The notes below the pieces were generated by a model, which worked only from the letters and a program-made list of their open reading frames with translations, was not told where the DNA came from and did no database searches. A stretch of 64,000 bases of DNA from an uncultured Ignavibacteriota bacterium (GTDB taxonomy: Bacteria > Bacteroidota > Ignavibacteria > UBA10030 > UBA8401): NCBI GenBank assembly GCA_903884005.1, contig CAISDA010000033.1, positions 124,001 to 188,000 of the forward strand, written 5' to 3'. The position numbers and the translations under genes were made by a program. Numbering within the stretch: position 1 is the first letter of the stretch; each line of letters begins with the position of its first letter. Positions 9,704 to 64,000 of the stretch are shown here, piece by piece.

Positions 9704-9727
9704 AAAGATGGCTGCCATTGGTAAATG

Positions 9728-12424
9728 TTAAAAGTCCAACCTGATGCCTGCTTGAATCGATCGTCGAACGTCGACATAGCTCGGGATGTTCATGCGATCG
9801 CGTGTTCGGCTGTACGTCGGTCCCGCATCCAACGGATTGCCCGATGTTGGCCAGACGTCAAGCGCATTGATGCTGTCGAAGACATTGTTGACGATGGCGA
9901 ACACAGCCAATTTCATGCCGGCGATGGTGAACCCGCGCGAGGCTCTCAGGTCGACCCTCTGCGTGGACGGCATTCGCTCGGAATTTTTTTCTTCAAGGAG
10001 ACTGTTGCTCTCATCGGGTTTTTGAGGAGTATACGGCAGCCCGCTCGATACGCGTATGACCGCATTAAGGGAAAAATTTTCGAACGGATGAATTCCGGCT
10101 ACATCTGGCCCGAAATCTTTCGGAAACTCCAGCCCCAGCGTGCTGTAGAAGACATGCTCGCGATCGAAGGCAAGCAGGAACACACGCTTGGGCCGCAATA
10201 CTGCCGAGGCACGCCGGTAATCGTTATACCCTTCGCGCGGATCCGATTCATTCCCCTTCGCAACGGAATACGTATAGTTCATGTTGCCGAACCAGTAATC
10301 GCTCAAACGCTTCGTTACTCCGATCTCGAGTCCCTGAACGTTGCCATAATTCGAATTGTCGAACACCGTGTATTCATACGGGAAAACGGCCAAATAGGTG
10401 CTTCCCGTCAGATTGGTGATGTCCTTGAAGTAGCCGCCGATATCGATGGAATAATCGGCACCAAGCTGGTGCTTCACACCGAATTCAAACGCCACGGTCT
10501 TCTGCGGGGCAATGCCCGGATTGCCGACGATCGCTCCGTCGACGGTCGGATCGCGCAGCGTGTACATGTCGACATAGTCGGGGATCTGAAAAAAATGTCC
10601 GTACGAACCATAGAAAACGGTCTTATCGCTCATCGGGAACGCAATGCCGAGACGAGGACTGACCTGCTGCTTTGCCGGCGTCGATACTTCGCCCACCGGC
10701 ACCCAAATTTTATCGCTGTTCAGATACCCCGCCGGCTCGCGCACCGACGGCCACCGGGTATCATCCACATTCACATAATCGTAGCGAAGCCCCGCATTGA
10801 TGATGCAGATATCAAATTCAATTTTGTCCTGAATGTAAGCGGACACTTCGAGCGGATTTTTCACATATTTTTCATAGGCATGAAATCCGGCCGGGAACGG
10901 TTCCTGGAAACTCAATCGGTCGATCGCATACCGGCGAATCTCGATGCCGCTCTTGACAAGATTATGTCTGCCCAGCTGCGTGCTGAAGTCGGCCTTCGCA
11001 AGGATCGTCGTCACATTGTTCGTGATCCCGATGCCGTTGTCGGCGTTCGTCCAGAAAGGAGGAGTGTTGCTGTTCTTCACGAGATAATTGGAAGACAACA
11101 GCTGCCCGTCCGCAGAAAAAACAGCGTCGCGTCCCTGTTCAAACCTGTTGAAGTAACGGCGCTGATAGGACAGCGATGCCTCATAGTATGTGCCGGGATT
11201 GAGGATGTGACTGATTTTCAGATTATCGCGCCACGAATAATCCTGCCTGTCCTCATATCCAGCCGGGTCGTACTTCCATTGATGCGAGTACGGCTTGTAG
11301 GTTTTGTAAAACCTCTGCGAACTCAGATTGAGCTTGATGGCGTTCCACGCATAGGTGAGCTTTCCGTTCACTTCCCGTTCTTTTGTATATCCCCAGGGCA
11401 TCGGATCGAGCATATTCATATAGCGTCCGGTGACGAAGAATTTGAGGTCGGGAAGGTAAGGAACCGGGCCGCTCAGCACAGCCGAAAGCTGACCGCGCAT
11501 ATTGATATCCGGCCACAAATCCGGCGTGCCCGAGAGCGTTTGTTTCTTATATGCCGAGGGATAGTCGTTGACGAGCGTATACCCTCGTCCGTTGACACGC
11601 GGAACAAATGAACCGTCCGGCGCCACGCCCCACTCATCGAGCGCAAGCGCGTCGGCTTTGTGATAGGGAGACTCATTCAACTGGTCCGTGGTGTATTCGA
11701 TGCGGCCGGCGTAGTGATCCCCGCCTTCCTTTGTGACAATGTTCACAACGCCTGAGAGCGCCTGTCCGTATTCGGCGCTGAATGCGCCGGTAAGTACCTG
11801 CAGTTCTTCGATCGCGTACTTGTCGATCTCGCCGTTGAAACCTCCCGAAAGCGGATCGCGAACGGGCACGCCGTCGATCATGTACGCAACTTCACCGCCG
11901 CGGCCGCCACGGGCGTGCAATGCACCGTCTCCGCCCGTCGTGAATCCGGCCTGCAGTCCGACGACGTCCTGAAACGACACCACCGGCAGGTCGGAGAACG
12001 CCTGAGATGAGACGACCGATGTGCGGGACGTCTCATCCTTGTTGATCATCGGGCGTTCGGCTTTGATGATCACTTCGCCGATGGAGATCGAACTTTCCGT
12101 CAACGAATATTTGACCTCCGTCGTGAAATCCGCCCTCACCGCCACATTGGTCATGGTCTGTTCCCCATAACCGACAAGGCTCGCCTTGAGTGAGTATGTG
12201 CCCGGCCTCACCTGGAGCACAACAAAATACCCTTCCGGGTCCGACACTGCGCCCAGGCGTTCGCCAACAATTTGAACGTTGACGAACGGAAGCGGTTCGC
12301 CGGTTGCTTTACTGATCGCACGTCCGGATATTTTCCCGGTTGTGCCGGCAATGAGCATTGCCGGCAGCGCGATGAGTACAAGTGCTCCCAGATATTTTCC
12401 GAACACACGGCACAGATTGGACAT
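9728..12424 (-). CDS. TonB-dependent receptor, module I
   Basis: Outer-membrane transporter of 898 residues. Residues 1-26 are the signal peptide; 28-115 form a carboxypeptidase-regulatory-like domain (GKISGRAISKATGEPLPFVNV); 120-240 form the plug, with DVVGLQAGF, a Gly-rich GGRGGEVAYMIDGVPV and VLTGAFSAEYGQALSGVVNIVTK. The remainder is a 22-strand barrel type region ending in a short LDF-type aromatic strand. It imports a ligand by use of the TonB-ExbBD system; the ligand is unknown. GGAG six to seven bases before the ATG supports the start. It lies 90 bases after the lamin-tail protein gene and 24 bases before the large surface protein gene, so all are probably one transcript from the promoter at 13645-13673. 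Confidence 0.9.
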   Translation of the reverse strand: MSNLCRVFGKYLGALVLIALPAMLIAGTTGKISGRAISKATGEPLPFVNVQIVGERLGAVSDPEGYFVVLQVRPGTYSLKASLVGYGEQTMTNVAVRADFTTEVKYSLTESSISIGEVIIKAERPMINKDETSRTSVVSSQAFSDLPVVSFQDVVGLQAGFTTGGDGALHARGGRGGEVAYMIDGVPVRDPLSGGFNGEIDKYAIEELQVLTGAFSAEYGQALSGVVNIVTKEGGDHYAGRIEYTTDQLNESPYHKADALALDEWGVAPDGSFVPRVNGRGYTLVNDYPSAYKKQTLSGTPDLWPDINMRGQLSAVLSGPVPYLPDLKFFVTGRYMNMLDPMPWGYTKEREVNGKLTYAWNAIKLNLSSQRFYKTYKPYSHQWKYDPAGYEDRQDYSWRDNLKISHILNPGTYYEASLSYQRRYFNRFEQGRDAVFSADGQLLSSNYLVKNSNTPPFWTNADNGIGITNNVTTILAKADFSTQLGRHNLVKSGIEIRRYAIDRLSFQEPFPAGFHAYEKYVKNPLEVSAYIQDKIEFDICIINAGLRYDYVNVDDTRWPSVREPAGYLNSDKIWVPVGEVSTPAKQQVSPRLGIAFPMSDKTVFYGSYGHFFQIPDYVDMYTLRDPTVDGAIVGNPGIAPQKTVAFEFGVKHQLGADYSIDIGGYFKDITNLTGSTYLAVFPYEYTVFDNSNYGNVQGLEIGVTKRLSDYWFGNMNYTYSVAKGNESDPREGYNDYRRASAVLRPKRVFLLAFDREHVFYSTLGLEFPKDFGPDVAGIHPFENFSLNAVIRVSSGLPYTPQKPDESNSLLEEKNSERMPSTQRVDLRASRGFTIAGMKLAVFAIVNNVFDSINALDVWPTSGNPLDAGPTYSRTRDRMNIPSYVDVRRSIQAGIRLDF

Positions 12425-37550: not shown

Positions 37551-37604
37551 ATGATTTTCCAGTTCTACGTTAATATCCTATGCGCGGCTTCTATCGTCAG
37601 CGCA

Positions 37605-38351: not shown

Positions 38352-38421
38352 ATCACTCCTGACATCACTCGTACCAAAGAGCACCCGAACAGTGCGGTGT
38401 GTTGTTAAAAAAATGTCGTCC

Positions 38422-39957
38422 TTAGAACCGATATGCGGCTTCGATCATTAAATTATGCCGCTTTTGCGAATTGTAATTCCCATTCGATTGATAGATATCC
38501 TGGTACGTCAACACCGCATACTCGTATGTGAGCTCCAGCAGGACATTGCCAAGCGTGATGCCCGCGCCCGCAGAATAGATGCCGCCGCGGGCAGGTTCGC
38601 CGATAATGGCAGACCCGTCGGGCGAGAAGGCTTGTATATCCTCGTGATACCCGGTGCGCAGCGCAACCGTTGTGCTCGGCCGAAATTCAGCGCCAAAGCG
38701 CATCGTTGCATAATTATTGACCCATGGGTTGGACGATGCTGTGAGTGTGGAGCCCGTCAAGAGCATGGATGAAAGACTGCGCACTTCATAGTCGAATGCA
38801 AGCGTCCATTTTTCCGTGGGCGTTAAAATAAAACCGATCGTATACGCCATGGGGAAGGCAAGATCTTCTTTGCCGCTTTCATGATAACTTCTGTTCACGA
38901 GAGAATCGATACGAACGGGAAACCTTTTTTTGGTAGTATCGAGGCTCGTCACTTCCCGATCCCAGGTTCGAGTCAGCGTGTATGCAGGCTTCACCGTCAC
39001 ACCGAGACTGAAGAAATTTTGTTGAAACAGCAGCCCGACCGTAAACATTGTTCCGGAATACGATGACGTCCCCACTTTCGCCTGTTGATAATACACGGTA
39101 TCCAGCATGAAATCATTGGCGGTTGCTTTATTATTTGTGGCAAGATAGAGATGGCCTCGCTCCACGCGATGTTCGTTGTCATCCGATTTTCCGGTGAGCA
39201 GTGTCGCCGAAGCGCCGAAGGTCAGCCCCTGCACCAGAGCGGCCGAGAATCCGGGAGTAATGCCGTACACGCTCCCTGTCCGTTCACGAATGTATTGATA
39301 CCACTGCGCATTCACCGTGTCGATCGGCTTGGTGATGGTTTTCGGATCCGGGCGCAGCTGCCCAAGATACGGAGACAGCGCATTGTTGTTCTGGTAATAG
39401 TGATCGAGGTTCATCACCTGCGATGCGCCAATGCCCGCGGTAATGGAAATATCCGCGACCTTCAACGGCATCGCCGCCACGAGGGAAAGCGGCTGTGCTG
39501 AGGAAGAACTCCGGTCCCAATTCGGCTGAATATTATCGTATTGCCGCTGCACGGCCTTCCATCCCGTCAGGGGAACGCCCAAACTATCCTTCGGTGTCGG
39601 AATGTGCGATGGATCGGCAAGGCTTTCAAACATTGCGCTCAGCCCCGGGTCGCTCATGTACGGGACCCATTCCTGCGTCTGCTGCCGTGATGTGCTCCCG
39701 AAGAGTCCGCCAACGCGAAGTTCAAACGACCCGAGCCGTGAGAGTGCGGCCGGATTTGAGAAGAGCGCAGACGCATCGTTTCCATTCGCACCGACGGTCC
39801 CTCCCATTGCGCGTGAACGGCCGCTCGCCACACTGAGTTGGTCAAGCCCCTGAACGTCCAATGGACCTGCGGCAATTTGTGCGACCATCGCGGAAGCGCA
39901 ACAAAGCGTCGCGGCAACGATCACACCGATAATTTTCGTGGCAAGGTTCATTGTCAT
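38422..39957 (-). CDS. FadL/OmpP1-like outer-membrane barrel, module II
   Basis: Exported protein of 511 residues resembling FadL-type outer-membrane transporters: signal peptide 1-26, then SRAMGGTVGANGNDASALFSNPAALSRL, the N-terminal hatch typical of FadL and PorV relatives, and a barrel ending in an aromatic strand (AAYRF). FadL proteins move hydrophobic molecules; in this setting the substrate is open. Start ATG overlaps the stop of the PorV-like gene by four bases (ATGA), implying translational coupling, and GGAG lies about ten bases upstream. The paralogue at 57495-59033 has the same overlap. Sequence pairs such as QYDNIQPNW/QYDNITPNW and YYQNNNALSPYLGQ/YYQNNNSMSPYLGQ show recent common origin. 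Confidence 0.83.
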   Translation of the reverse strand: MTMNLATKIIGVIVAATLCCASAMVAQIAAGPLDVQGLDQLSVASGRSRAMGGTVGANGNDASALFSNPAALSRLGSFELRVGGLFGSTSRQQTQEWVPYMSDPGLSAMFESLADPSHIPTPKDSLGVPLTGWKAVQRQYDNIQPNWDRSSSSAQPLSLVAAMPLKVADISITAGIGASQVMNLDHYYQNNNALSPYLGQLRPDPKTITKPIDTVNAQWYQYIRERTGSVYGITPGFSAALVQGLTFGASATLLTGKSDDNEHRVERGHLYLATNNKATANDFMLDTVYYQQAKVGTSSYSGTMFTVGLLFQQNFFSLGVTVKPAYTLTRTWDREVTSLDTTKKRFPVRIDSLVNRSYHESGKEDLAFPMAYTIGFILTPTEKWTLAFDYEVRSLSSMLLTGSTLTASSNPWVNNYATMRFGAEFRPSTTVALRTGYHEDIQAFSPDGSAIIGEPARGGIYSAGAGITLGNVLLELTYEYAVLTYQDIYQSNGNYNSQKRHNLMIEAAYRF

Positions 39958-41009
39958 TTGAATTGCACTCCTAAGCTGATACGATGCACATTATTCAGAT
40001 ATTCATTCATTTTTCCATAGCTGTAATCGACGCTCACCGGCCAGCCGCCCAGATCGGTGCACACGCCCGCTCCATACGTCAGCCCCTCGCTGTCGTAATC
40101 GACCTTGTAGCCGACGCGCAGCGCAATGATTTCCGAGAACGAGTATTCGGCCCCGACGTGCATCTGCTGCAGGTAATCGTTCGGCTGAAACAGATCGTAG
40201 GCAACAGTGAGACGATTCGTGTTATCCTGGAACAGCAGGCCCTCTTTGCCGAACATATTTGCCGAAATGCCAAGACGAAAAGCGAACGGCGCCGGATGCT
40301 CTTTACTGGCAAACGTCACCTGCGGACCGAAATTTTGGGCCGACACGCCGATCTGCACGGAGCGGTATCCGGTATTATAGATCATGCCGAAATCGAAGAG
40401 GAAGGCTTCGGCATATGTCTTGTACGATGTTTCCTCGCCGGTCACGCTGTTCACCGTCGTGATCACATTATCCGTCCACAGCGATTCCATTGCATACTTC
40501 ACCGTGCCGCCGATAGAAAATTTATCGGTGAGCGCCTGTGCATACGAGAACCCCACGAGATACGAATACGGAGTGAATGATCTGCCGGTCAATCCGGAAT
40601 TGAAAAACCGCGAACCGTCGGCGGACATCACCAGGTCGGACACATCGGCCCTCGTTTCCTTGATCGTACCATAATCGACATACTGGAACTGAAATCCGAT
40701 ATTCCCCAGATTTCCCATGGGCAGGTCGTATGCGAGTGCGATCAGTTTCGTGTCGAAGATCCACGACGTCAGCGTGGACGCCACTTGCTGGTATTCGCTT
40801 CGCGCGAGGCCTGCCGGATTCCAAAAGGAAGCGTCGGCACCGCTGGCGAGCGAGCCGAAAGCGTCTCCCATGGCCGTGGCTCGCGCCGTCGGCATGACCT
40901 TTAAGAATTGAAGCGATGTCGTGCCGACTTTTTGCCCGTGCATCTGTTCGATGCACAGCACCACCAACGACAGCATGATCATTGTTCGTAATGTAGGTTT
41001 CATAGTCAT
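39954..41009 (-). CDS. PorV/PorQ-like outer-membrane protein (UPF0164), module II
   Basis: Outer-membrane barrel of 351 residues with signal peptide and the family signature VGTTSLQFLKVMPTARATAM, then GDAFGSLASGADASFWNPAGLA. It ends VHRISLGVQFK. The family includes PorV, the T9SS carrier of sorted cargo, but this copy is part of a TonB receptor module and may serve the ~750-residue protein with its sorting-like tail. I chose ATG 41009, giving MTMKPT and the same length as the paralogue in module III (MTMKHT, 351 residues); a GTG at 41018 is possible. Ten bases separate it from the stop of the previous gene, and its stop overlaps the next start. Confidence 0.83.
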   Translation of the reverse strand: MTMKPTLRTMIMLSLVVLCIEQMHGQKVGTTSLQFLKVMPTARATAMGDAFGSLASGADASFWNPAGLARSEYQQVASTLTSWIFDTKLIALAYDLPMGNLGNIGFQFQYVDYGTIKETRADVSDLVMSADGSRFFNSGLTGRSFTPYSYLVGFSYAQALTDKFSIGGTVKYAMESLWTDNVITTVNSVTGEETSYKTYAEAFLFDFGMIYNTGYRSVQIGVSAQNFGPQVTFASKEHPAPFAFRLGISANMFGKEGLLFQDNTNRLTVAYDLFQPNDYLQQMHVGAEYSFSEIIALRVGYKVDYDSEGLTYGAGVCTDLGGWPVSVDYSYGKMNEYLNNVHRISLGVQFK

Positions 41010-41018
41010 CTGGTTCAC

Positions 41019-43283
41019 TTAGTTGATGATAACAAACTTGCCGTGACAGCGGGAACCGTCGGGCGTATCGACGGAATAAAAATAGACGCCCGAAGCGATC
41101 AATTGATTGTTGCGCGTGATCTGGACATACGGCTCCTGAATATTATTCACGTCATGGTCAATGGTTTGAATCAACTGCCCGCTGAATGAGAAGATCCGTA
41201 TCGTGCAGGTTTTCGGAAGATTGTAAAATCGCAATTGACTGTCCACATTGCCCGCACCGGTGTATCCCGATTTGACAAGAAATGGATTGGGAGCGATATA
41301 CACTTGTTCCAGGTTGAGCGTGGAACCGATCGCCGATTCGCGCAGTGTCATGTTCGTGCGCCCGCTCGTATTGCCCTGATCGTCCACTGACAAGACGGAG
41401 TAATACCACTTGTCGCCAACCCGCGTATTTTTATCGGTGAACTGATACCTGCCGTTTATTAAATAGAGCGGATCATGTTTTTGCACCGATGCCAATTTTT
41501 GCCAATGCCCCAGCGGATGCGCCGACTTGAATAATTCATAATGGCTGAACGCACCCTGGAGCCGCGGTGTGGTGAACGATTCCACTTGAGGACCCCAGCT
41601 GATGACATTCTCACCCTGCGCCGTGTTTTCCACCAGAATGGCAGGCGCCGGTACAGGAATCGGAAGAGTGTACGTTCCATGGTCGTTATATTTTTCAGGC
41701 CAATACGGTTTTGTCGAATCATCATGGTTGATCACGGGCCCGCCGATATATGCCTGTATGGCACGGTCTGCGACCTCACGCACAGTGATCACGTTCGAAT
41801 TAAGATATTCCGGTTTTGGATATTTCGACAGATAATCGCTTCCATGAAGGATAGTCGGGTTCAATGTCAAAGGATTGAGATCTTTTTGCAGATGGATCAC
41901 CCAATAGTTCGGTACTCCGTAAAATGCAAACGATGGCTGACCCGATTCGCCGACCCTGCCATCGGTAGAGACATTACCGGTGCTTCCTCCGACATCGTGG
42001 AGATATGTTCTTACTGCCATGCCGGCGACTGTTTCGGAGTCGCGCGCGGCGCCGAAGCCGCATACTTCAGCGATGGTAATGCGAAGTTTTTCATGCGGCT
42101 TGAGTATATACGGCCCAAACGCCCAATTCCGCCCGACAGCCTGCGGCAAACTCTGGCGCCAATTGAATTCTCCCCGTCCGAGCCAGTCCTTTCCATACGT
42201 CGCAGAATCGGTGATCGAAGGATTCGCGCGCACGCCGCCGATATCCAGGACCTTTGTTCGTGTTCTCGGTCCGTCCAACTGCGCGGTCTCAACTCCATCA
42301 TAATATGGCTGCTTCATATGCATGTGAGAGTCCCATGCCACCGGATCTTCCGTCAGAGGATTGGCGAACTTGACTGCGGTTTCCGATTTGTGAGCAAGGT
42401 GGAGCGTATCATAATAGAGCACCATAACGCCGGGGGCCTGAGGGCTCAGCATCCCGCCCCCATATTTTCCCGTCGCAGCCCAATCGGCGAAATATGTTTT
42501 TTCCGGATTCCCCGTGCGGTGGAGTCCATATTGAAGCCAGCGCTGCATGTCGAAATGCGCCTGATAATCCTTGCCTGCGATACCGATCTGCGACCAGCTG
42601 CCCGACCTGTCGTACCCAAATTTTCCGCCGGTGAGTCCATGAGAAAAATTGATGATCAAGTCCACGAGCTTCAGCGGATTTTTCGGTGACGACGGCACAC
42701 CGTCCAGATCGCCCGTGTTTTCAAATTCGTATTCGTAGATGATGAAATCATCGTAATCGGGAAAGCTCCACGACCGGCTCGTGCGTTTGATCGTCACGCC
42801 CACGGGGGTTGCCCATTGAGTGACGATCAGTTCTTCCGCTTCATCCGGATTGTACGCGGGATTTAAACTTCCATCACTCAGCACCGGGTAATTTTCCTCG
42901 CGCTTATCCGCGCCGGGGATGGGAAAAGAATTGGTTTGCGGCAGCGCGTTCGTGCCGCCGCCGCAGTACGCGTAGAGACGCGCCCTCGCAATGGAATCGA
43001 CAGGCGTGGCGGAAATTTGCACCCCGCCGCCAAACGAATTGTGCTGGCCTGTATAGGTTACTCCATCCAACACCAAAGAAGAATTTGCAGGCCACTCGAA
43101 CGAGGGAACTCCGAGCTCCGTTGTGCCCGCATTCTGGTACGCGCTGCGGCCCAGCGCGCCGGTCTTATACACGGCCTGCTGCAGCATCCCGCGCCTGTGT
43201 ATGAGATAATCCGTCTGTGACCACGCAGTATGCATTCCGGCGATCACGCAAAAAATGGATATCAGTTGTTTAGCTGAAATCAT
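41019..43283 (-). CDS. ~750-residue secreted surface protein with sorting-like tail, module II
   Basis: Exported protein of 754 residues, signal peptide 1-22. No enzyme motif is known to me. Conserved blocks shared with the module III protein: DYLIHRRGMLQQAVY, GVPSFEWPANS, YTGQHNSFGGGVQ, ENYPVLSDGSLNPAYNPDEAEE, RTSRSWSFPDYDDFIIYEYEF and GVMVLYYDTLHLA. A fibronectin-III-like part follows (PVPAPAILVENTAQGENVISW), and the tail reads VYIAPNPF, LRFYNLPKTCTIRIFSFSGQL, ASGVYFYSVDTPDG, GKFVIIN: similar in plan to T9SS sorting domains. GAGGAG six bases before the ATG is a strong ribosome site. It directly follows the TonB receptor gene in all three modules. Likely a surface partner of the receptor, a possible functional stand-in for SusD; inference only. 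Confidence 0.75.
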   Translation of the reverse strand: MISAKQLISIFCVIAGMHTAWSQTDYLIHRRGMLQQAVYKTGALGRSAYQNAGTTELGVPSFEWPANSSLVLDGVTYTGQHNSFGGGVQISATPVDSIARARLYAYCGGGTNALPQTNSFPIPGADKREENYPVLSDGSLNPAYNPDEAEELIVTQWATPVGVTIKRTSRSWSFPDYDDFIIYEYEFENTGDLDGVPSSPKNPLKLVDLIINFSHGLTGGKFGYDRSGSWSQIGIAGKDYQAHFDMQRWLQYGLHRTGNPEKTYFADWAATGKYGGGMLSPQAPGVMVLYYDTLHLAHKSETAVKFANPLTEDPVAWDSHMHMKQPYYDGVETAQLDGPRTRTKVLDIGGVRANPSITDSATYGKDWLGRGEFNWRQSLPQAVGRNWAFGPYILKPHEKLRITIAEVCGFGAARDSETVAGMAVRTYLHDVGGSTGNVSTDGRVGESGQPSFAFYGVPNYWVIHLQKDLNPLTLNPTILHGSDYLSKYPKPEYLNSNVITVREVADRAIQAYIGGPVINHDDSTKPYWPEKYNDHGTYTLPIPVPAPAILVENTAQGENVISWGPQVESFTTPRLQGAFSHYELFKSAHPLGHWQKLASVQKHDPLYLINGRYQFTDKNTRVGDKWYYSVLSVDDQGNTSGRTNMTLRESAIGSTLNLEQVYIAPNPFLVKSGYTGAGNVDSQLRFYNLPKTCTIRIFSFSGQLIQTIDHDVNNIQEPYVQITRNNQLIASGVYFYSVDTPDGSRCHGKFVIIN

Positions 43284-43301: not shown

Positions 43302-46115
43302 TTAAAAGTTTAAGATCATTCCAAGCTGCACCGACCTCGGGGCATTTGAATACAGTCGAAATTCCTGATTGACAAGGTAGCTTGGGCTGTCCGGATGTGA
43401 AAAATATGTCACGTCCTGACCAAGTTCGAATTTTTTGGTATACTCTTCGAGACCGAGCCCCGCACTCGTGTTCGGATTGAACAACGCGTTGTAGTCGTAG
43501 ATGCGGTCGTTGAACAGATTGGTCACCTCGGCATAGAATGATGCATTGGTCCCGAAGAAATTCTGTATCTGCTTTGTGATCTTCAGGTTCGTGCCGTATT
43601 CGGCCGGTGTCCGCAGGCCCATCAGAATAAGCTTGTTGATCTGCGAGTTGTACGGACGGCCGCTGCGCGCAAACGATGTGGCGGCAATGGTGAGCTGCTC
43701 GAACGGATAGATGCCAAAGATCTCGGGCCCCCATTGCATGGGTCCGTTCAGGATAACGTTTGCGACAAGATTATGAGTTCTGTCAAAATCCATATAGATG
43801 TCTTCCGGCGTCGGGTCCTTCGTTCCGCTGCTTTCATAAATATCCGGATAGAGCATGCCAAGGGCGGAACTGTTTTTCCCCATCGCAACGCCATACGTAT
43901 AATTCAACGAGCCGGACACAATGCCGCTGCGTTTCGAAAGCCCGGCACGGAACCCGCGCACATCGGCATAATCGCGATTGACATACGTGATGTACGGCGA
44001 CCCGGAGATCGGATGAAACTGCGCCTGCTGGATAAGATCTCTGATGTCTTTGTAATACCCGCTGACATCCACCGTAAATCCTTCGCCCAATCCTTTTGTG
44101 ACGCCGAGATCGAGGCTGTTCGTCTTTTCCGGCTTCAATGTAGGATTCCCGATCACATTGGGAATTTGCGAGATGATGCCCGATGCGATATCGGACTGGG
44201 AATACCTCTGGTTAATGATGCGGTTGAATTGAGGGCGCTGAAAAAACGACCCGTAGTTGACGTGAAACACAGTGCTCACAGACACGGGGAATGAAATGCC
44301 GATACGCGGCTGCAATCCCGATACTGTCGGTGTGTTCGATGTCGGAGCCAGCAGTTCGTTAAATTTTGTGTTGCCAAGGCTGTCCGTGTAGCGGTACGGA
44401 GAAAAAACGTCGGTGTAATACTTCACATTCGCATTATAGACGTCCATTCGGAGGCCGACATTCGCGATCATTCCCTCGAATTCCATCTTGTCCTGAACAT
44501 ACACCGCATATTCATACGGCTTCACGGTGTAGTGAGAAATGGCCGCGTTTTTTCCGCCCACACCGAAGAGGTCGTTGAGCTCAAGTGTATATGCGTTGCC
44601 CTGAATACCGGCGAGCAGCATGTGCGACACAGACACCTGACTCGTGATCGACGCATCGAGACTGACAGTTTGAGTCTTTTCGGAAGTAAAGCTGCTGTTT
44701 AACTGGCCGTACTTGAAATAATCACCGACATCTTTTCCGTCCCACGCCTGATCCCACACGGGGAACGGCGGCGCGTAATAATTTTCATTCGGGTCCGTGG
44801 CAGGCGGGCCTTCGAGTGTACTCGTCGTGAGCGAATTCAGCTTCACTTCGTAAAATGTGCTCTTGTTGATCGCCTGGGACCATCGGAGGCCCAGCTGCGT
44901 GTTTTCGTCGATCGTGCGGTCGATGTTGAACAATTGATCCCATATCCAATCGTACCAGCCGACGCCGCTTTTGTCGCTGAACACATGGCCGTCCGCGCGG
45001 GAATACGCGCCGCTGAACCGGAGAGACATCCCGCTGCCGACATCATACACGAGGTTCCCCATGAACTGCCTGGTGATATTCGGTTCCGGTGTCGGCAGCA
45101 TCGGCCAGCTATTATCCGTGTGCACCGCCATAAACATGCGGATGCCCTTCGCCAACGGCCCGCCGAAATTTGCATCAAGCGAATAATCCCGAAGATTGTC
45201 GTAGCTGTCGCCGAAGGTTCGATGTGCCTGCAACAGCCACACAGTATAGAGCAGCCCCGCCCTCGACGATGCCGTCGACGCCAAACCGCCATAACGGCCG
45301 CCGACCGTCCCTTCAGTCCCGGTCCACTGACTCAGCGACAAGCGGTTCCCCATATAGGGATTGGCAACGGTATCCCACAAGCTCGGACCAAAATGCTTGA
45401 GGCTTGGAAGGCGCGTCCGCACTTCTCCCCGCGCGGACCATTTGTCCGATGAGCCTTCTTTCATCGTGATATTGACGATACCCGATTGCGCGTTTCCATA
45501 TTGTGCGCTAAACCCGCTCGTGATGACTTCGACTTCTTCCACTGCGCTCATGATAGGATTGAACGATGCTGCGCTGGTCAGCGGGTTCATGATCCCCATG
45601 CCGTGAAGATTATAGAGTTCCTCATTGTCGCGGCCGCCGCGGAAATGCCCGTCGCTGACATCCGCATTCAGCGCAAGCACGTCTGCGATATCCTGTATGC
45701 CGGGAACATTCACCACGTCCTCGCCCCGTCGAATTTCGCTTGTCGAGGTTTTTTCCCTCTCCACATCAGGACGTGTGGCCGTGATCACAACTTCCTGAGC
45801 CTGGACTGTCGACTCGTCCATGCGAAAATCAACGACTGTCGTGCGATTCACGTTGACGATGATCTTTTGCTGAAGCACGCCCCGATAGCCGACAATCGAT
45901 GCGGCAATATTATACACACCGGGGGGAACGTTGAGGATGAAATAATTTCCATCGGCGTTGCTCGATGCTCCGAGCGAGGTTCCGCGAAGAACAATGTTGG
46001 CAAACGGAAGGGGGTCTCCATTTTTTGCATCAAGAACACGTCCGGATATTTTTCCGGCATCTTGCGCGAATGCGGAGACAGAGAGGAGAACGCACAATAG
46101 TAAAATTTTTGCCAT
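43302..46115 (-). CDS. TonB-dependent receptor, module II
   Basis: Outer-membrane receptor of 937 residues. Signal peptide 1-17, a carboxypeptidase-regulatory-like domain at 21-108 (GKISGRVLDAKNGDPLPFANIVLRG), plug at about 110-230 (GIQDIADVLALNADVSDG, HFRGGRDNEELYNLHGMGIMNP, VEVITSGFSAQYGNAQSGIVNITMKEG), then the barrel, ending in LGMILNF. The energy-coupled ligand is unknown. GGGAAG seven bases before the ATG supports the start. It heads the six-gene module II and is divergent from the ToxR-like regulator at 46384, which may control it. It is clearly closer to the truncated receptor of module III than to that of module I. Confidence 0.92.
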   Translation of the reverse strand: MAKILLLCVLLSVSAFAQDAGKISGRVLDAKNGDPLPFANIVLRGTSLGASSNADGNYFILNVPPGVYNIAASIVGYRGVLQQKIIVNVNRTTVVDFRMDESTVQAQEVVITATRPDVEREKTSTSEIRRGEDVVNVPGIQDIADVLALNADVSDGHFRGGRDNEELYNLHGMGIMNPLTSAASFNPIMSAVEEVEVITSGFSAQYGNAQSGIVNITMKEGSSDKWSARGEVRTRLPSLKHFGPSLWDTVANPYMGNRLSLSQWTGTEGTVGGRYGGLASTASSRAGLLYTVWLLQAHRTFGDSYDNLRDYSLDANFGGPLAKGIRMFMAVHTDNSWPMLPTPEPNITRQFMGNLVYDVGSGMSLRFSGAYSRADGHVFSDKSGVGWYDWIWDQLFNIDRTIDENTQLGLRWSQAINKSTFYEVKLNSLTTSTLEGPPATDPNENYYAPPFPVWDQAWDGKDVGDYFKYGQLNSSFTSEKTQTVSLDASITSQVSVSHMLLAGIQGNAYTLELNDLFGVGGKNAAISHYTVKPYEYAVYVQDKMEFEGMIANVGLRMDVYNANVKYYTDVFSPYRYTDSLGNTKFNELLAPTSNTPTVSGLQPRIGISFPVSVSTVFHVNYGSFFQRPQFNRIINQRYSQSDIASGIISQIPNVIGNPTLKPEKTNSLDLGVTKGLGEGFTVDVSGYYKDIRDLIQQAQFHPISGSPYITYVNRDYADVRGFRAGLSKRSGIVSGSLNYTYGVAMGKNSSALGMLYPDIYESSGTKDPTPEDIYMDFDRTHNLVANVILNGPMQWGPEIFGIYPFEQLTIAATSFARSGRPYNSQINKLILMGLRTPAEYGTNLKITKQIQNFFGTNASFYAEVTNLFNDRIYDYNALFNPNTSAGLGLEEYTKKFELGQDVTYFSHPDSPSYLVNQEFRLYSNAPRSVQLGMILNF

Positions 46116-56441: not shown

Positions 56442-56494
56442 GATAGTTTTCCAGTAGAACGTTAATGTCCACGACGTCTTCGATGCACGGAAGA

Positions 56495-57247: not shown

Positions 57248-57270
57248 TTCATTCCTCACGTTGCGATAAT

Positions 57271-57494: not shown

Positions 57495-59033
57495 TTAAAA
57501 ACGGTAAGCAAGCTCCATCACGAATTGATGCTGTTCTCGTGTGTTATAGTTGACATTCGATTGATAGATATCCTGGTATTTCAGAAGCGAATATTCGTAT
57601 GCGCAATCGATCCTGATGTTCCCCAGATTGATGCCTGCTCCGAACGAATAGATTCCGCCGCGGGCCGGCTCGTCAATAATTGCCGAACCATCCGGCGAGA
57701 ACGCCTGGATGTCCTCACGGAAACCGCCGCGAAGCGCCAGCAGGTCACTGGCAAGGTATTCTATACCGAGACGCATCGCTGCCTTGTTTCCTGACCACGG
57801 GTGCGTTGTCGTGCCGGTGTAGCTCGACGTCAATTCCACCGATCCTAAATTTCTCAATTCATAATCGAACGCGATCGTCCATTTGTCCGTCGGTGTCAGC
57901 ACAATTCCCAGCGTATAGGAAAACGGGAACCTGATATTATCCGTGCCGCTTTCGTGATACGCTCTCGCGACCAGGCTGTCGAAGTTCGCATAACGCACCC
58001 TGCGCGATCTCAGTGTCGAATCGATGGTAACGTCGCGGTCCCACTTTCGTGTGATCGTCATGGTCGGTTTCACGCTGAGGCCAATGCTGTAGCGCTCCTG
58101 TTGAAAATGAAGTCCGAGGATCGCATTCGTTCCGGAGTACGTCGAGGTCCCGATTTGTGACTGCGCGCAAAAAACGGTGTCCACCATGAAGTTGGCAGCT
58201 GTGCCGTTGGAGATCGCGATATTAATGTGACCTCGTCCCTGGCGACGTTCATTGTCATCCGAGGAGCCTGTAAGAATTGCCACCGATGCGCCGACCCTGA
58301 GCCCCGGCAGCACTGTCACGGACAGGCCGGGAGTAATACCGTAGACAGAACCCGTCCGTTCGCGTCGATATTGATACCACTCGACATGGACGGTGTCGTT
58401 CAGTTTCGTGATCAAAAACGGATCCGGACGCTGCTGGCCAAGATACGGCGACATGGAATTGTTGTTCTGATAATAGTTGTCGAGATCCATCATCTGCGCC
58501 ACACCGACGCCCGCGGCGGCATTCATGCCTGCAATGGTGAATGGCATGGCGGCAGCCAGCGACAGCGGCTGTGTACGTGAGGATTTTTTTTCCCAGTTCG
58601 GCGTGATGTTGTCGTATTGTTTCTGCAGCTTCGACCAGGCGCTTAATGGCAGGCCCGGTACCCCGTTGCTGTCGGGCGTCTTGATGGTGCCGGTCAGGCC
58701 TTCAAACATGACGCTGATGCCGGGAAGGTTTCTCATCGGAACCCATTCCTGCGTCTGCTGCCGGTCGGCGGTGATGAAGATGCCGCTGCCCCGTATTTCA
58801 AAAGACGTGAGCCGCGAAAGAGCGGCAGGATTTGAAAAGAGAGCGGATGCATCGTTCGCACTTGCCGCTCCGGTGCCGCCCATGGAGCGCGAACGGACGC
58901 CGATGACGGAAAATTGATCGAGTCCCTGAACACTGAGCGGACTCGCGGCAGGCTGAGCGACCAGGATCGACGTACAGCTGAGAACTGCAGCAATGATCAC
59001 GACGTACATTTTTTTATCGAGACTCGATTTCAT
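57495..59033 (-). CDS. FadL/OmpP1-like outer-membrane barrel, module III
   Basis: Exported protein of 512 residues, paralogue of the module II protein at 38422-39957. Signal peptide 1-26, hatch motif SRSMGGTGAASANDASALFSNPAALSRL, barrel and terminal aromatic strand (ELAYRF). The start ATG overlaps the stop of the PorV-like gene by four bases, exactly as in module II, so coupled translation is conserved. As a FadL relative it may pass a small, perhaps hydrophobic, molecule, or have become an accessory of the T9SS/TonB assembly. Substrate unknown. Confidence 0.83.
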   Translation of the reverse strand: MKSSLDKKMYVVIIAAVLSCTSILVAQPAASPLSVQGLDQFSVIGVRSRSMGGTGAASANDASALFSNPAALSRLTSFEIRGSGIFITADRQQTQEWVPMRNLPGISVMFEGLTGTIKTPDSNGVPGLPLSAWSKLQKQYDNITPNWEKKSSRTQPLSLAAAMPFTIAGMNAAAGVGVAQMMDLDNYYQNNNSMSPYLGQQRPDPFLITKLNDTVHVEWYQYRRERTGSVYGITPGLSVTVLPGLRVGASVAILTGSSDDNERRQGRGHINIAISNGTAANFMVDTVFCAQSQIGTSTYSGTNAILGLHFQQERYSIGLSVKPTMTITRKWDRDVTIDSTLRSRRVRYANFDSLVARAYHESGTDNIRFPFSYTLGIVLTPTDKWTIAFDYELRNLGSVELTSSYTGTTTHPWSGNKAAMRLGIEYLASDLLALRGGFREDIQAFSPDGSAIIDEPARGGIYSFGAGINLGNIRIDCAYEYSLLKYQDIYQSNVNYNTREQHQFVMELAYRF

Positions 59034-60085
59034 CGGAATTGCACTCCTAAACTGATGCGATGCACTGTATTCAAATATTCACTCATTTTACCGTAGCTGT
59101 AATCGACGCTCATCGGCCACCCTGAAATATCGGTGTGCACTCCGGCGCCGAATGTCAATCCTTCACTATCGTAGTCGACTTTGTACCCCGCGCGCAGCGC
59201 GATGATTTCCGAGAATGAATACTCCGCGCCCACGTGCATTTGCTGCTCGTAGTCGTTCGGCTGGAAGAGATCGTAGGCAAGCGTGAACCGGTTCATATTG
59301 TCCCGGAAGAACAGGCCTTCCTTGCCGAAGAGATTTGCCGAAACACCCAAACGAAACGCCAGAGGAGCCGGATGGGCGACATCGGCGAATTTCACCTGAC
59401 CACCGAAATTCTGCACCGATACGCCGAGCTGAACGGATCGGAAGCCGGTGTTATACAACATGCCGAAATCGAACAGCAGCACGTCGGCGTACGTCTTGTA
59501 TGTCGTCTTCTCCCCCGTCACGCTGTTGACAAGCGTGATGATCTGATCGGACCACAGGGATTCCATGGCGTATTTTGCCGTCAACGCAGCCGAAAATTTA
59601 TCGGTGAACTGTTTCGCATACGACACTCCAAGCACATACGAATACGGCGTGAACGAACGTCCGGTCAATCCGGCATTGAAAAACGGCTGGCCGTTCGCGG
59701 GAATGACGAGATCCACCGCGTCGGCGCGCGTTTCGTCCATTCGTCCATAATCAATATATTGGAATTGAAAACCGGCCGTTCCCAGGTCTCCCAATGGCAG
59801 TCCGTATGCCAGCGCAACCTGCTTCGTGTCGAACAGCCACATGGTAAGGGTGGAGGAGATCTCGTGATTGTCGAGCTTCGTTAATCCCGCAGGATTCCAA
59901 AAAACGGCATCGGCACCCGACGCAAGCGACACGAATGCATCGCCCATTGCCGTTGCGCGGGCTGTCGGCATCACCTTCAGGAACTGGAGTGAACTTGTGC
60001 CGACCTTTTGCGATTGCCCCTGCTCAATGCACACTGCAAGCAAAAGCATGGTCACTACTAATCGATGTGTATGTTTCATAGTCAT
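59030..60085 (-). CDS. PorV/PorQ-like outer-membrane protein (UPF0164), module III
   Basis: Outer-membrane barrel of 351 residues, same length as its module II paralogue. Signal peptide 1-25, then KVGTSSLQFLKVMPTARATAM and GDAFVSLASGADAVFWNPAG, ending TVHRISLGVQFR. It belongs to the family of the T9SS carrier PorV. ATG 60085 (MTMKHT) lies nine bases after the stop of the ~740-residue protein gene. No strong ribosome site is seen. Conservation of length, spacing and gene order with module II argues for a specific task within the module. Confidence 0.83.
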   Translation of the reverse strand: MTMKHTHRLVVTMLLLAVCIEQGQSQKVGTSSLQFLKVMPTARATAMGDAFVSLASGADAVFWNPAGLTKLDNHEISSTLTMWLFDTKQVALAYGLPLGDLGTAGFQFQYIDYGRMDETRADAVDLVIPANGQPFFNAGLTGRSFTPYSYVLGVSYAKQFTDKFSAALTAKYAMESLWSDQIITLVNSVTGEKTTYKTYADVLLFDFGMLYNTGFRSVQLGVSVQNFGGQVKFADVAHPAPLAFRLGVSANLFGKEGLFFRDNMNRFTLAYDLFQPNDYEQQMHVGAEYSFSEIIALRAGYKVDYDSEGLTFGAGVHTDISGWPMSVDYSYGKMSEYLNTVHRISLGVQFR

Positions 60086-60094
60086 CTGCTTAGC

Positions 60095-62326
60095 TCAATT
60101 GATAATAACGAACTTGCCATGCGTGCGGGAGCCGTCCGGTGAATCGACGACGAAGAAATACACGCCCGAAGCAATTAATTGATTGTTACGTGTTACCTGA
60201 AAATATGCCTGATCATTTTTATCGATGTCATGTTCGATCGTCTGCACCAACTGTCCGCTGTACGAGAAGATGCGGATCGTGCATGTGTGGGGAAGATTAT
60301 AAAAACGGAGCTGCGAATTAATGTCTCCGCCGACGCTCTCGCCGCTCTGGCCCGATTTGACAATGAATGGATTCGGCGCAACGAACACTTTGCCGAGGGT
60401 CGGCGCCGACCCGATCGTGGATTGATGCAGCGTCAGGTTCGTCCGCCCGCTCTTGTTGTTTTTATTATCGACCGACAGCACGGAGTAATAGAAATAATCG
60501 CCGATTCTCGAATTCTTGTCGATGAATTGATACTTCCCGTTGACGAAGTACTGTGCTTCACCACGTGCAACGGAGACCAGCTTTGTCCATGGACCGAGTG
60601 CGCTCGACGCCTTGTACACATCGTAATGGTCGAACGTGCCCTGCATCCGGGGAGTTTGAAATGATTCCACCTGAGCTCCCCACACGATTCGGTTTTCTCC
60701 CTGCAGCGTATTTTCGATCGTGATCGCGGGCGCCGGCACTGGAATTGGAAGACGATACACGCCGTGCGCATTGTATTTTTCCGGCCAGAATTGCATTGCA
60801 TTATGGTTGGTCAGCGCTTCGCCTGTGTATGCCTGGATCGCACGGTCCGCCACCTCGCGCACTGTCACGACGTTCGAATTGACATAATCCGGCAGAGCAT
60901 ACTTGCTCAGGTAGTCGCTGCCCCAGATGACCGACGTGTTGACGGAATTCGGGTTGAGGTCCTTTTGCGTATTCGTCTGCCAGTAGTTCGGCACCGTATA
61001 GAACGCGTACAACGCATCGCCGGCTTCAGCCGTCGGGGGACTGGTTTGTCCGTTGCTGCCTCCGATATCCTTTACTCCTGCGGCGGTCTCTTCGGCTCGC
61101 GCCGCTCCGTAGCCGCACACTTCGGCGATGGTGATATTGAGTTTTTCACCCACATCCAAATTGAACGGGCCGAAGCAAAAACCCCTTCCGATGCCGAAAT
61201 AATTGCTTTGTCTCCAGTTGAAGGTGCCGCGGCCGAGCCAGTCGCTCCCGAACGTGACGGAATCGGAAATGGCGGCGAGGGAGCGGTTGTTCTGTGTATT
61301 CAGGAACGCCGTGAGAAGCTTCGTCATTGTGTACTGCGACGTCTCCATGCGAAGGCTGTACGGCTGCTTGATATGCCCGTTGACGTCCCACGAATTGGTC
61401 GTGTCCTTGCCGATCAAGATGACCTTCGTATCTCCCTTGCGTGCGAGATGAAGCGTATCGTAATACAGTGCCATGTATCCGGGACACTGAGGACTAAGCA
61501 ATCCGCCGCCGTTTTTCCCGGTTGTCGACCATTCATTAAAATACTTTGTCTCGGGATTTCCCGTGCGGTGATAACCATACTCGAGCCAGCGCTTCGGGTC
61601 CCACCTAGCATAAAAATCGAGTTTTTCAACCACGGTCGGCGCCCAGGAGTCGGTCTTCCTGTTATACCCGAACTTGCCGCCGGTCAGTCCGTTCGAAAAA
61701 TTGATGATCAAGTCCTTGAGCTTCACCGGACGCGGCGGTATCGATGGGCTGCCCGTCAAATCGCCGGTGTTTTGAAATTCGTATTCATAGATGATAAAAT
61801 CGTCGTAATCGGGAAAGCTCCATGCGCGGCTGGTGCGCGTGATGGTGATGCCCGCGGGTGTCGCCCACTTGGAAACGATCTTTTCTTCCGCCTCGTCGGG
61901 ATTGTACGACGGATTCAAACTGCCGTCGCTGAGAACGGGGTAGTTCTCGATCCGCTGCTGACTCAGCGGGAACGAATTGAGATATTCCGCAACGGCGTCG
62001 ATCACGCCGCCGCAATACGCATACAGTCGTCTGGTGGAGTCGACACGGTCCGCACCAAGCTGCACGCCTCCGCCATAGGAATTATGCTGCCCCGTGTATT
62101 GCTTCGCATCCACGATGACGGCGGAATTCGCAGGCCACTCGAACGACGGAATCCCGAGTTCGGTATTGGCATTCGACGTCGCATATTTGCGGCCCAGCTC
62201 GCCGGTGTTATACACGGTCTGATTCAACATTCCGCGTTTGTGTATGAGATAATCTTTTTCCATCTGCGCAGCGGCGACGTTTCCGAGCAGACAGAGAAGA
62301 CATGCGAGCGCTTTGAATTTGCCCAT
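60095..62326 (-). CDS. ~740-residue secreted surface protein with sorting-like tail, module III
   Basis: Exported protein of 743 residues, paralogue of 41019-43283. Signal peptide MGKFKALACLLCLLGNVAAAQ; conserved blocks KDYLIHKRGMLNQTVYN, GIPSFEWPANS, QYTGQHNSYGGGVQ, ENYPVLSDGSLNPSYNPDEAEE, RTSRAWSFPDYDDFIIYEYEF and MALYYDTLHLA. A fibronectin-III-like part follows, then the tail VFVAPNPFIVKSG, LRFYNLPHTCTIRIFSYSGQL, GKFVIIN. AGGAG seven bases before the ATG at 62326 decides the start; an upstream TTG would overlap the receptor gene. No enzyme motif recognised. Likely surface partner of the TonB receptor encoded just upstream; binding function is a hypothesis. Confidence 0.75.
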   Translation of the reverse strand: MGKFKALACLLCLLGNVAAAQMEKDYLIHKRGMLNQTVYNTGELGRKYATSNANTELGIPSFEWPANSAVIVDAKQYTGQHNSYGGGVQLGADRVDSTRRLYAYCGGVIDAVAEYLNSFPLSQQRIENYPVLSDGSLNPSYNPDEAEEKIVSKWATPAGITITRTSRAWSFPDYDDFIIYEYEFQNTGDLTGSPSIPPRPVKLKDLIINFSNGLTGGKFGYNRKTDSWAPTVVEKLDFYARWDPKRWLEYGYHRTGNPETKYFNEWSTTGKNGGGLLSPQCPGYMALYYDTLHLARKGDTKVILIGKDTTNSWDVNGHIKQPYSLRMETSQYTMTKLLTAFLNTQNNRSLAAISDSVTFGSDWLGRGTFNWRQSNYFGIGRGFCFGPFNLDVGEKLNITIAEVCGYGAARAEETAAGVKDIGGSNGQTSPPTAEAGDALYAFYTVPNYWQTNTQKDLNPNSVNTSVIWGSDYLSKYALPDYVNSNVVTVREVADRAIQAYTGEALTNHNAMQFWPEKYNAHGVYRLPIPVPAPAITIENTLQGENRIVWGAQVESFQTPRMQGTFDHYDVYKASSALGPWTKLVSVARGEAQYFVNGKYQFIDKNSRIGDYFYYSVLSVDNKNNKSGRTNLTLHQSTIGSAPTLGKVFVAPNPFIVKSGQSGESVGGDINSQLRFYNLPHTCTIRIFSYSGQLVQTIEHDIDKNDQAYFQVTRNNQLIASGVYFFVVDSPDGSRTHGKFVIIN

Positions 62327-62346: not shown

Positions 62347-64000
62347 TCAAAAGTTAATGATCATGCCAATATTCACCGAGCGCGGCGAGTTGGAGTATAT
62401 TCTAAATTCCTGATTGATCTTGAATCCCGGACGAAGGTCGTCTTCATAATACGTGATGTCTTCGCCCTTCTCATACATGAGTGTCCATTTCGTAAGATTC
62501 GATGTATTGGTCGGATCGGGATTGAACACGGCAGTGTAATCGTAGATCTTGTTGTCGAACAGGTTGGTGACCTCGAAGTAGAACGACGCTGTCGTGCCAA
62601 GGAAATCGGAAAATTGTTTCGTCAGCTTCATATTGGTGTTGTATTCGGCCGGCGTTCTCTTTGTCATGAGCAACCCGGGATTGAGGCGGGATGTAAACGG
62701 ACGGCCGCTGCGCGTAAACGACGTGAAGGCGCATGTGATTTGCTCCAACGGATAGGCTCCGAACATCTGCGGTCCCCATTGCTGAGGCGTATTAAATCCC
62801 ACATTGGCCACAAGGTTATGCGTGCGGTCAAAATCCATCAGTATATCTTGCGGAGTCGGATCGTGGGACGGGCCGCTTTCATAGATCGTCGGAATCTGGT
62901 TGCCGTCCGACGAACTGTTTTTTCCGGTCGCTACGCCGTATGTGTAATTCAACGTGCCGGTAAGCATGCCGCCGCGCTTTGCAATGCCGACCCGGAAGCC
63001 GCGGATGTCCGCGTAATCGCGGTTAACATACGTTGTATAGTTGCCCGATTTGGCGCTGTAGATGGCCTGCTGGAGCAGGTCCTTGACGTCTTTGTAATAA
63101 CCGCTGATGTCCAGTGTGAACCCCTCGCCCAGAGCCTGCGTGACGCCGATATCATAGCTGTTTGTCACTTCCGGGTTCAGGCGCGGGTTGCCAAGCGTTC
63201 CGGAGACCGTCTTTGCTCCGCCGTAGTTATAGAGTTCTTTTCTATTGATCGACTGCGAAACAATGCGGCTGAACGGAGGACGCTGTAAAAATGTTCCGTA
63301 GTTCACATGGAACACGGTATTGATCGAGACCGGGAATGAGAATCCGGCACGGGGCTGGAGTCGTGCAATGACCGGGGTCTTCGATTTGGGCGCATAGCGC
63401 TCGTCGATCTTTTGAAGGCCGGTGCTGTCTGTGTATCGATACGGCGCAAAGATATCGGTATAGTATTCCGTATTCGCGCTGTACACGTCGAAACGAAGTC
63501 CGATGTTGGCAATCATTCCTTCGAATTCCATCTTGTCCTGCACAAAGAGAGCGGCTTCATACGGCTTTGCGGAGTATGCAGAGACGCTGCCGCCGCTGCG
63601 CGAAGCGACCGAGCTGAGATCGCTCACATCGATGTTGTACATGTTTCCCTGCACGCCGGCCAGCAGCATATGAGACTTCGTCACCTGGCTTGTGAGAGAA
63701 GCGTCGAGACTGTACGTTTGCGTCTTGTCGGTATTAAAGTCCTGATCGAGCACGCCATAGGTAAACCCATCCGGCAGATTCGACCAGCTTGCCCAGACCA
63801 GCGGAGACGAGACTCCGTCCATCTGATTCGGATCGGTGACCGGTGAACCGTCGAGCGCCGTCGTCTGGAGCGTGTTCACTTTGATTTCATAAAATGTGCT
63901 CGTGCTCAGCGCCTGCGTCCAGCGAAGGCCGAGCTGAAGATTCTCGTCCAACGTACGCTTCACATCGAACACCCGATCCCACGTCCACGCATACCATCCG
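62347..64000 (-). CDS. TonB-dependent receptor, module III (cut by window edge)
   Basis: C-terminal 550 residues or so of an outer-membrane receptor; the frame stays open to the right edge (GWYAWTWDRVFDVKRTLDEN), matching GWYDWIWDQLFNIDRTIDEN in the module II receptor. Shared blocks include QLGLRWTQALSTSTFYEIKV, KPYEAALFVQDKMEFEGMIANIGLRFDVY, PRAGFSFPVSINTVFHVNYG and the terminal SVNIGMIINF strand. Signal peptide, regulatory-like domain and plug must lie outside the window. It precedes the ~740-residue protein gene by 20 bases, so module III mirrors module II gene by gene. Confidence 0.92.
   Translation of the reverse strand, partial: GWYAWTWDRVFDVKRTLDENLQLGLRWTQALSTSTFYEIKVNTLQTTALDGSPVTDPNQMDGVSSPLVWASWSNLPDGFTYGVLDQDFNTDKTQTYSLDASLTSQVTKSHMLLAGVQGNMYNIDVSDLSSVASRSGGSVSAYSAKPYEAALFVQDKMEFEGMIANIGLRFDVYSANTEYYTDIFAPYRYTDSTGLQKIDERYAPKSKTPVIARLQPRAGFSFPVSINTVFHVNYGTFLQRPPFSRIVSQSINRKELYNYGGAKTVSGTLGNPRLNPEVTNSYDIGVTQALGEGFTLDISGYYKDVKDLLQQAIYSAKSGNYTTYVNRDYADIRGFRVGIAKRGGMLTGTLNYTYGVATGKNSSSDGNQIPTIYESGPSHDPTPQDILMDFDRTHNLVANVGFNTPQQWGPQMFGAYPLEQITCAFTSFTRSGRPFTSRLNPGLLMTKRTPAEYNTNMKLTKQFSDFLGTTASFYFEVTNLFDNKIYDYTAVFNPDPTNTSNLTKWTLMYEKGEDITYYEDDLRPGFKINQEFRIYSNSPRSVNIGMIINF

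Follow-up and report, generated by a model that had tools for sequence, protein, structure and literature searches.

The protein encoded at 41019-43283 belongs to a family whose members stand between a TonB receptor and a barrel of the PorV family. We consider it reasonably probable that this protein is a T9SS-exported, non-lipidated, substrate-capturing subunit which is held at the receptor by a dedicated PorV paralogue, SusD-like in its role and unrelated to SusD. The holding of polysaccharides at the receptors of Bacteroidota is usually explained by lipoproteins of the SusD type. Genomes without SusD lack that explanation, and for whole classes and phyla the cassette described here supplies one that can be tested. 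No earlier description of the family or of the cassette was found in the open-access literature searched, which was limited to open-licence papers.

Results

Gene order of the cassettes

Three members of the family lie in the window, i.e. in the whole stretch of 64,000 nucleotides that was analysed. The order of transcription at each of the three loci is TonB receptor, slot protein, PorV-family barrel, where the term slot protein denotes the family member sited between the receptor and the barrel. The preliminary description had placed three proteins in one and the same slot, and indeed a TonB receptor is directly upstream and a PorV-family gene directly downstream of each. The genes are the following:

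43302..46115, minus strand: TonB receptor of the 41-kb cassette, 937 aa, with CarbopepD_reg N-domain (Pfam PF00593, PF13715; cassette-linked receptor clade)
41019..43283, minus strand: slot protein 1, 754 aa (ORF; Sec signal peptide, supersandwich, FnIII, T9SS-like tail)
39954..41018, minus strand: PorV-family barrel of the 41-kb cassette, 354 aa, putative dedicated shuttle and anchor (NF033709, 204 bits)
38422..39957, minus strand: FadL/OMPP1-like fourth gene of the 41-kb cassette subtype (PF03349 just under the cut-off; weak BamG match, 63 bits)
62347..64000+, minus strand: TonB receptor of the 60-kb cassette, truncated at the end of the window (948 aa in the longest open frame, L176)
60095..62326, minus strand: slot protein 2, close member, 743 aa when counted from the likely ATG (61% identity with the 41019 gene)
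59030..60085, minus strand: PorV-family barrel of the 60-kb cassette (HMM)
57495..59033, minus strand: FadL-like gene of the 60-kb cassette (ORF and HMM tabulation)
9728..12424, minus strand: TonB receptor of the 6.7-kb cassette (ORF and Pfam)
6743..9718, minus strand: slot protein 3, distant member, 991 aa (long subfamily, extra beta domains ahead of the tail)
5701..6729, minus strand: PorV-family barrel of the 6.7-kb cassette (NF033709, 181 bits)

The ORF of the second slot gene reaches further, to a TTG at 62350. A ribosome-binding site, GAGGAG, precedes the 41019-43283 gene, the intergenic gaps in the window cassettes are operon-like with about 20 bp or less, and in the 41-kb and 60-kb loci the FadL-like gene, which is conserved in relatives, shares 4 bp with the PorV gene. 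Each close cassette is followed by a pair of small proteins (226/260 aa and 259/254 aa; window 36870-38384 and 55761-57259); since the same pair stands after both, the duplicated unit comprises at least six genes. Identity between the 6.7-kb protein and the two others, from the 41-kb and 60-kb loci, is about 20%. The signal peptide, the FnIII part and the tail ascribed earlier to the slot proteins are present in all three, but the size of about 750 residues fits just two of them, because the third has 991 aa; the family spans 595 to 1286 aa.

Both PorV barrels tested, those of the 41-kb and 6.7-kb cassettes, exceed the cut-off of 90 bits of the PorV/PorQ family model NF033709, and both miss the cut-off of the PorV equivalog NF033710 (79 and 74 bits, cut-off 250); the barrel of the 41-kb cassette also misses those of the PorQ and PorV2 equivalogs. 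With the SusC/RagA model TIGR04056, both cassette receptors tested gave 60 bits, under its cut-off of 368.

The 754-aa protein matched 16 places in the whole source genome, most of them adjoined by PorV-model matches. When the neighbourhoods were tabulated as genes in 20-kb stretches, the family was present at 15 loci of this genome. It had been stated that the protein is always found between a TonB receptor and a PorV-like gene; the adjacency is strict in 13 of these loci, but at C88 a small ORF separates the slot gene from the PorV gene and at C84 the slot gene lies a few genes upstream of a TBDR-PorV pair. The FadL-like gene is absent from most source-genome cassettes.

The same order was recovered elsewhere. 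Relatives belonging to the 754-aa subfamily were compared at 80 loci in Ignavibacteria, Rhodothermales, KSB1, Calditrichia and Neomarinimicrobiota. On almost every contig of sufficient length these loci contain the receptor, the slot protein and PorV, usually with the FadL-like gene as well. Independently of that subfamily, the best tail-only match per genome was taken in 40 other genomes of the same phylum, i.e. the selection was made by tail sequence alone, and the immediate neighbours were a receptor upstream in 35 and PorV downstream in 37 (38 and 39, respectively, within three genes). PorV was the next gene after family-class tails in 14/17 cases in the source genome, 39/43 in the 40 genomes and 68/69 in the 80 loci, while it was never next to the ordinary type A tails of the same loci (0/24, 0/26 and 0/88, in total 0/138). 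The PorV adjacency of the family tails far exceeds chance. Some variants of the neighbourhood were also seen: members of about 1100-1150 aa (L129, L133, L134, L137-L139, L147 and similar) in other genomes usually have a gene of about 580 aa downstream of them, and at L028:8655-12104 two tandem PorV paralogues lie beside a protein of 530 aa whose tail is related, without a nearby TonB receptor, which is possibly a cassette of another kind.

Co-evolution of receptor, slot protein and PorV

The three components of the cassette have diverged together. Tree distances of the receptor, the slot protein and PorV correlate among the 15 source-genome cassettes with r 0.79-0.86 (permutation p 0.0005), and identical sister pairs recur across the three trees; the distances of the tail and of PorV co-vary as well (r 0.74). 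The cassette PorVs cluster together, separately from the housekeeping PorV of the source genome (C6:225347, 118.8 bits) and from other paralogues. In the tree of 38 source-genome receptors, all 15 cassette receptors fall in one clade (support 99/98), together with just two others, L168 and L175 (G000 C46 and C2). The L168 receptor is followed by a signal-peptide protein that runs off the stretch and may be a divergent slot protein.

Predicted structure of the slot proteins

The AlphaFold model of the 754-aa protein reached pLDDT 86.6 and pTM 0.87; that of the 991-aa protein was poorer (pLDDT 71, pTM 0.61). The following domains were delineated:

41664..43220, minus strand: N-terminal beta-supersandwich, residues 22-540 (VIA-align Z 19.8 to 9ju0)
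41331..41663, minus strand: FnIII domain, residues 541-651 (Z 10.6 to 5z06, Z 10.0 to 2w1n)
41022..41324, minus strand: C-terminal T9SS-like domain of PorZ/PorU type, residues 654-754 (PorZ 5m11 fold match, profiles)
8309..9601, minus strand: supersandwich of the third member, residues ~40-470 (9ju0, Z 16.8, 3.1 A over 241 residues)

The supersandwich of the 754-aa protein matches that of the dextran dextrinase 9ju0 with 3.4 A over 267 residues, and those of GH94 phosphorylases and GH116 with Z 17-18. In GH94/GH116-type enzymes the helical barrel after the supersandwich is the catalytic part, and this barrel is absent from the 754-aa protein. The fibronectin-III-like part noticed earlier was confirmed by the FnIII fold match of the same model, and the C-terminal domain superimposes on PorZ 5m11 with Z 10.7 and 2.9 A over 86 residues at 21% identity. 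Since the 991-aa protein has the same predicted supersandwich despite about 20% identity, one predicted architecture is common to the members. Beta structure dominates the models, in the form of the supersandwich, the FnIII and Ig-like domains, and SusD is not among the fold matches listed; a search against viral structures gave chiefly FnIII-type and phage-tail matches.

The tail and the T9SS

The tail had been described as a variant T9SS sorting domain, and this was supported: hhalign aligned it with type A tails (97%, E 2e-11). Its closest solved relatives are PorZ and PorU. Profiles of the family tails matched PorZ (E 9e-5) and PorU (E 1e-3) among the solved structures, and type A cargo structures were not matched. 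Thus both marks of the T9SS CTD superfamily were found, homology in the hhalign comparison and an Ig-like fold in the PorZ CTD match. Against TIGR04183, the type A CTD model with a cut-off of 23 bits, five members gave 22.3, 23.9, none, 13.3 and 14.4 bits. An HMM of the family tails separated 136 of them from 195 type A tails, with 3/331 within 10 bits; one of these three borderline tails belongs to a gene beside the housekeeping PorV, probably PorU. Judged by such comparisons, the family tails and the type A tails appear to be related but separate classes. An ending in Asn or Leu, to which attention had been drawn, is true for the three window proteins, but most family members end in Lys or Arg, and as a class-defining feature it was ruled out. 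The source genome encodes at least 150 type A T9SS-tailed proteins, a large secretome for 4.5 Mb.

On the surface of P. gingivalis PorQ anchors PorZ and PorV anchors PorU, and PorZ, like PorU, retains its CTD (PMC5562754). In the SprA translocon it is PorV that binds type A cargo (PMC10994853), and type B cargos adjoin dedicated barrels of the PorP/SprF type, by which they are fetched and held (PMC12618676, PMC9143113). By analogy, the slot protein and its PorV neighbour would fit this cargo-barrel pattern as a new type of pair.

Distribution in relation to SprA and SusD

The sample comprised 148 genomes of the phylum, 117 SprA-positive and 31 SprA-negative, in which the per-genome numbers of family members are lower bounds, as no more than 7 candidates were scored in each. 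SprA was present in 76/76 family-positive genomes and the family in 0/31 SprA-negative ones; SprA was also found in 20/20 genomes behind the sampled loci, mostly of KSB1, Calditrichota and Neomarinimicrobiota. The association with the T9SS holds, as the family occurs solely in SprA-bearing genomes of these samples. At G079:C7:260525-263974 the open frame around a SprA-like match has 6523 codons, far above the usual SprA length.

The SusD models PF07980, PF14322 and PF12771 had no match anywhere in the source genome, and SusD families were absent from the Pfam matches of the three slot proteins at E up to 1. There is no lipobox cysteine in these three proteins, and a lipobox-like motif was detected in 3/80 close relatives. 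With SusD models unmatched and the lipobox lacking, the slot proteins were ruled out as SusD members. The family was present in 40/40 SprA-positive genomes without SusD, SusD in 41/41 SprA-positive genomes without the family, and both in 36/117 SprA-positive genomes. In the class of the source genome the family occurs in 35/36 genomes and SusD in 6/36, and outside this class both systems were found in 31/81. The direction of these counts fits a substitution; they come from related genomes, so they are non-independent and the complementarity is partly phylogenetic.

Polysaccharide context and probable ligand

The locus of the 41-64 kb cassettes holds PL6-type lyases, sulfatases, GH2, GH29, a GH88-alginate lyase fusion and a radical-SAM/SPASM protein of the sulfatase-maturase kind, and this composition supports placing the 41-kb and 60-kb genes in a PUL. 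Around and between the close cassettes (window 14652-57259) there are no fewer than three PL6-type Chondroitinas_B proteins, along with several sulfatases and two GH2. This locus probably targets a sulfated uronate/fucose glycan, and the ligand of the two cassettes is probably a sulfated uronic-acid polysaccharide. Elsewhere the 754-aa subfamily has lyase-type cargo downstream of it (Chondroitinas_B 11, DUF5123 28 and Hepar_II_III_C 6 of 64), with DUF4957 and Alginate_lyase as further neighbours in other genomes, and the lyase-type proteins beside the cassettes often bear type A tails of their own.

The neighbours of other subfamilies are TPR proteins and PPIC rotamases rather than carbohydrate enzymes; PPIC-type rotamase models match 10/61 scanned downstream neighbours of the cassettes outside the 754-aa subfamily. 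A glycan ligand is therefore not general, and the assumption that all cassettes are polysaccharide loci was ruled out.

Discussion

From these observations we infer four steps, namely T9SS export, tethering by the PorV paralogue, receptor contact and glycan binding. The slot protein would leave the cytoplasm by its Sec signal peptide, without a lipid anchor, and would cross the outer membrane through SprA using its own class of C-terminal domain. The adjacent PorV-family barrel might then capture it and stay as its outer-membrane anchor, in a manner comparable to PorZ-PorQ and PorU-PorV, so that the supersandwich and the FnIII domain could lie above or next to the partner TonB receptor and pass the ligand to it. 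A similar interpretation had been offered in the preliminary description and is partly supported, by the FnIII domain, the variant T9SS tail, the occurrence solely with SprA, the lack of SusD in the genome and the polysaccharide context of the two close cassettes; the Asn/Leu ending is incidental.

The chief alternative is that the slot proteins are surface enzymes, in which a catalytic supersandwich resembling that of the GH174 endo-fucanase cuts the polysaccharide at the mouth of the receptor. An enzymatic role is possible because the supersandwich fold is common to carbohydrate enzymes, including the catalytic domain of the GH174 fucanase, and the models do match GH174 9k1g (Z 13.3 for the 754-aa and Z 13.6 for the 991-aa protein), 8jd7 (Z 13.7, 991-aa model) and the polysaccharide lyase 5no8 (Z 11.3, 754-aa model); moreover, in the 41019-type subfamily conservation reaches 95% or more at 27 polar residues of the N-domain. 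However, the better matches by fold come from the N-domains of enzymes of the GH94/GH116 type, the helical catalytic barrel of which is missing here, and none of the acidic residues of the supersandwich is invariant across the whole family. The clear catalytic domain of a known enzyme family, which had been named as an observation against a SusD-like role, was not found by sequence, neither with Pfam and NCBIfam nor with profiles against solved chains. The neighbouring lyase-type proteins, too, often have type A tails of their own. We regard the enzyme reading as unlikely.

Two further explanations concern the barrels. The PorV-like and FadL-like barrels might form, together with the slot protein, a module for the assembly or quality control of the large receptor, in the manner of BamG-BamH in the BAM complex of Bacteroidota, where BamG, a FadL-type barrel, anchors the surface protein BamH and loss of BamH affects some SusCD pairs (PMC12611786). 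This we hold to be quite improbable: although the FadL-like fourth gene is weakly similar to BamG, it misses the BamG cut-off and is lacking in most cassettes, and a dedicated set per receptor, diverging along with it, is more in keeping with a receptor subunit than with a general factor. Alternatively, the operon would reflect neighbourhood only, the slot protein being ordinary T9SS cargo, released or A-LPS-linked via the housekeeping PorV, and the paralogue an independent small-molecule porin. A housekeeping PorV does exist, hydrophobic compounds can pass FadL-type barrels, and 1/5 tails tested barely passes the type A model (23.9 against 23 bits). Nevertheless, type A cargos number about 150 in the genome, none of the 138 sampled type A tails adjoins PorV and the family tails nearly always do, and the co-variation of tail and PorV distances likewise speaks against it, thus we give this explanation very little weight.

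If the subunit model is true, it would establish a direct link between protein secretion by the T9SS and nutrient import, and would provide a function for many genes of environmental genomes annotated as "PorV/PorQ family" or "hypothetical". The cassette is, in addition, a marker for polysaccharide loci that are missed by SusCD-based searches. The chances seem to us evenly balanced for the wider proposal, in which a third, PorZ/PorU-like kind of T9SS sorting signal with dedicated PorV paralogues, joined to TonB receptors, would make up a SusD-independent nutrient-uptake machine occurring across Ignavibacteria, Rhodothermia, KSB1, Calditrichota and Neomarinimicrobiota, with subfamilies serving different substrates.

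Comparison with known systems

In BamG-BamH (PMC12611786), as proposed here, a FadL-type barrel anchors an extracellular protein over an outer-membrane barrel; however, BamH is a lipoprotein, the BamG cut-off was missed, and the cassettes occur as one set per receptor. The type B CTD cargos with PorP/SprF (PMC12618676, PMC9143113) share the arrangement of a cargo gene followed directly by a dedicated FadL-type barrel gene, but the slot tail is not type B by sequence, the cassette includes a receptor gene, and its barrel is of the PorV/PorQ family (14 bits with TIGR03519, cut-off 90.55). PorZ-PorQ and PorU-PorV (PMC5562754) have the same kind of tail, as indicated by the PorZ fold match, and a partner of the PorV/PorQ family; they serve the attachment of T9SS cargo, whereas the slot proteins have other N-terminal domains and many paralogues and are linked to TonB receptors instead. 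SusCD resembles the cassette in the gene beside a TonB receptor with CarbopepD_reg N-domain, in the one dedicated partner per receptor and in its polysaccharide loci. It differs in that the slot protein is without SusD homology and, by its model, beta-rich in contrast to the TPR-type helical fold of SusD, that it has a T9SS-like tail and a PorV-family partner in place of a lipobox, and that the cassette receptor falls far below the SusC model cut-off. The cassette is made of known parts.
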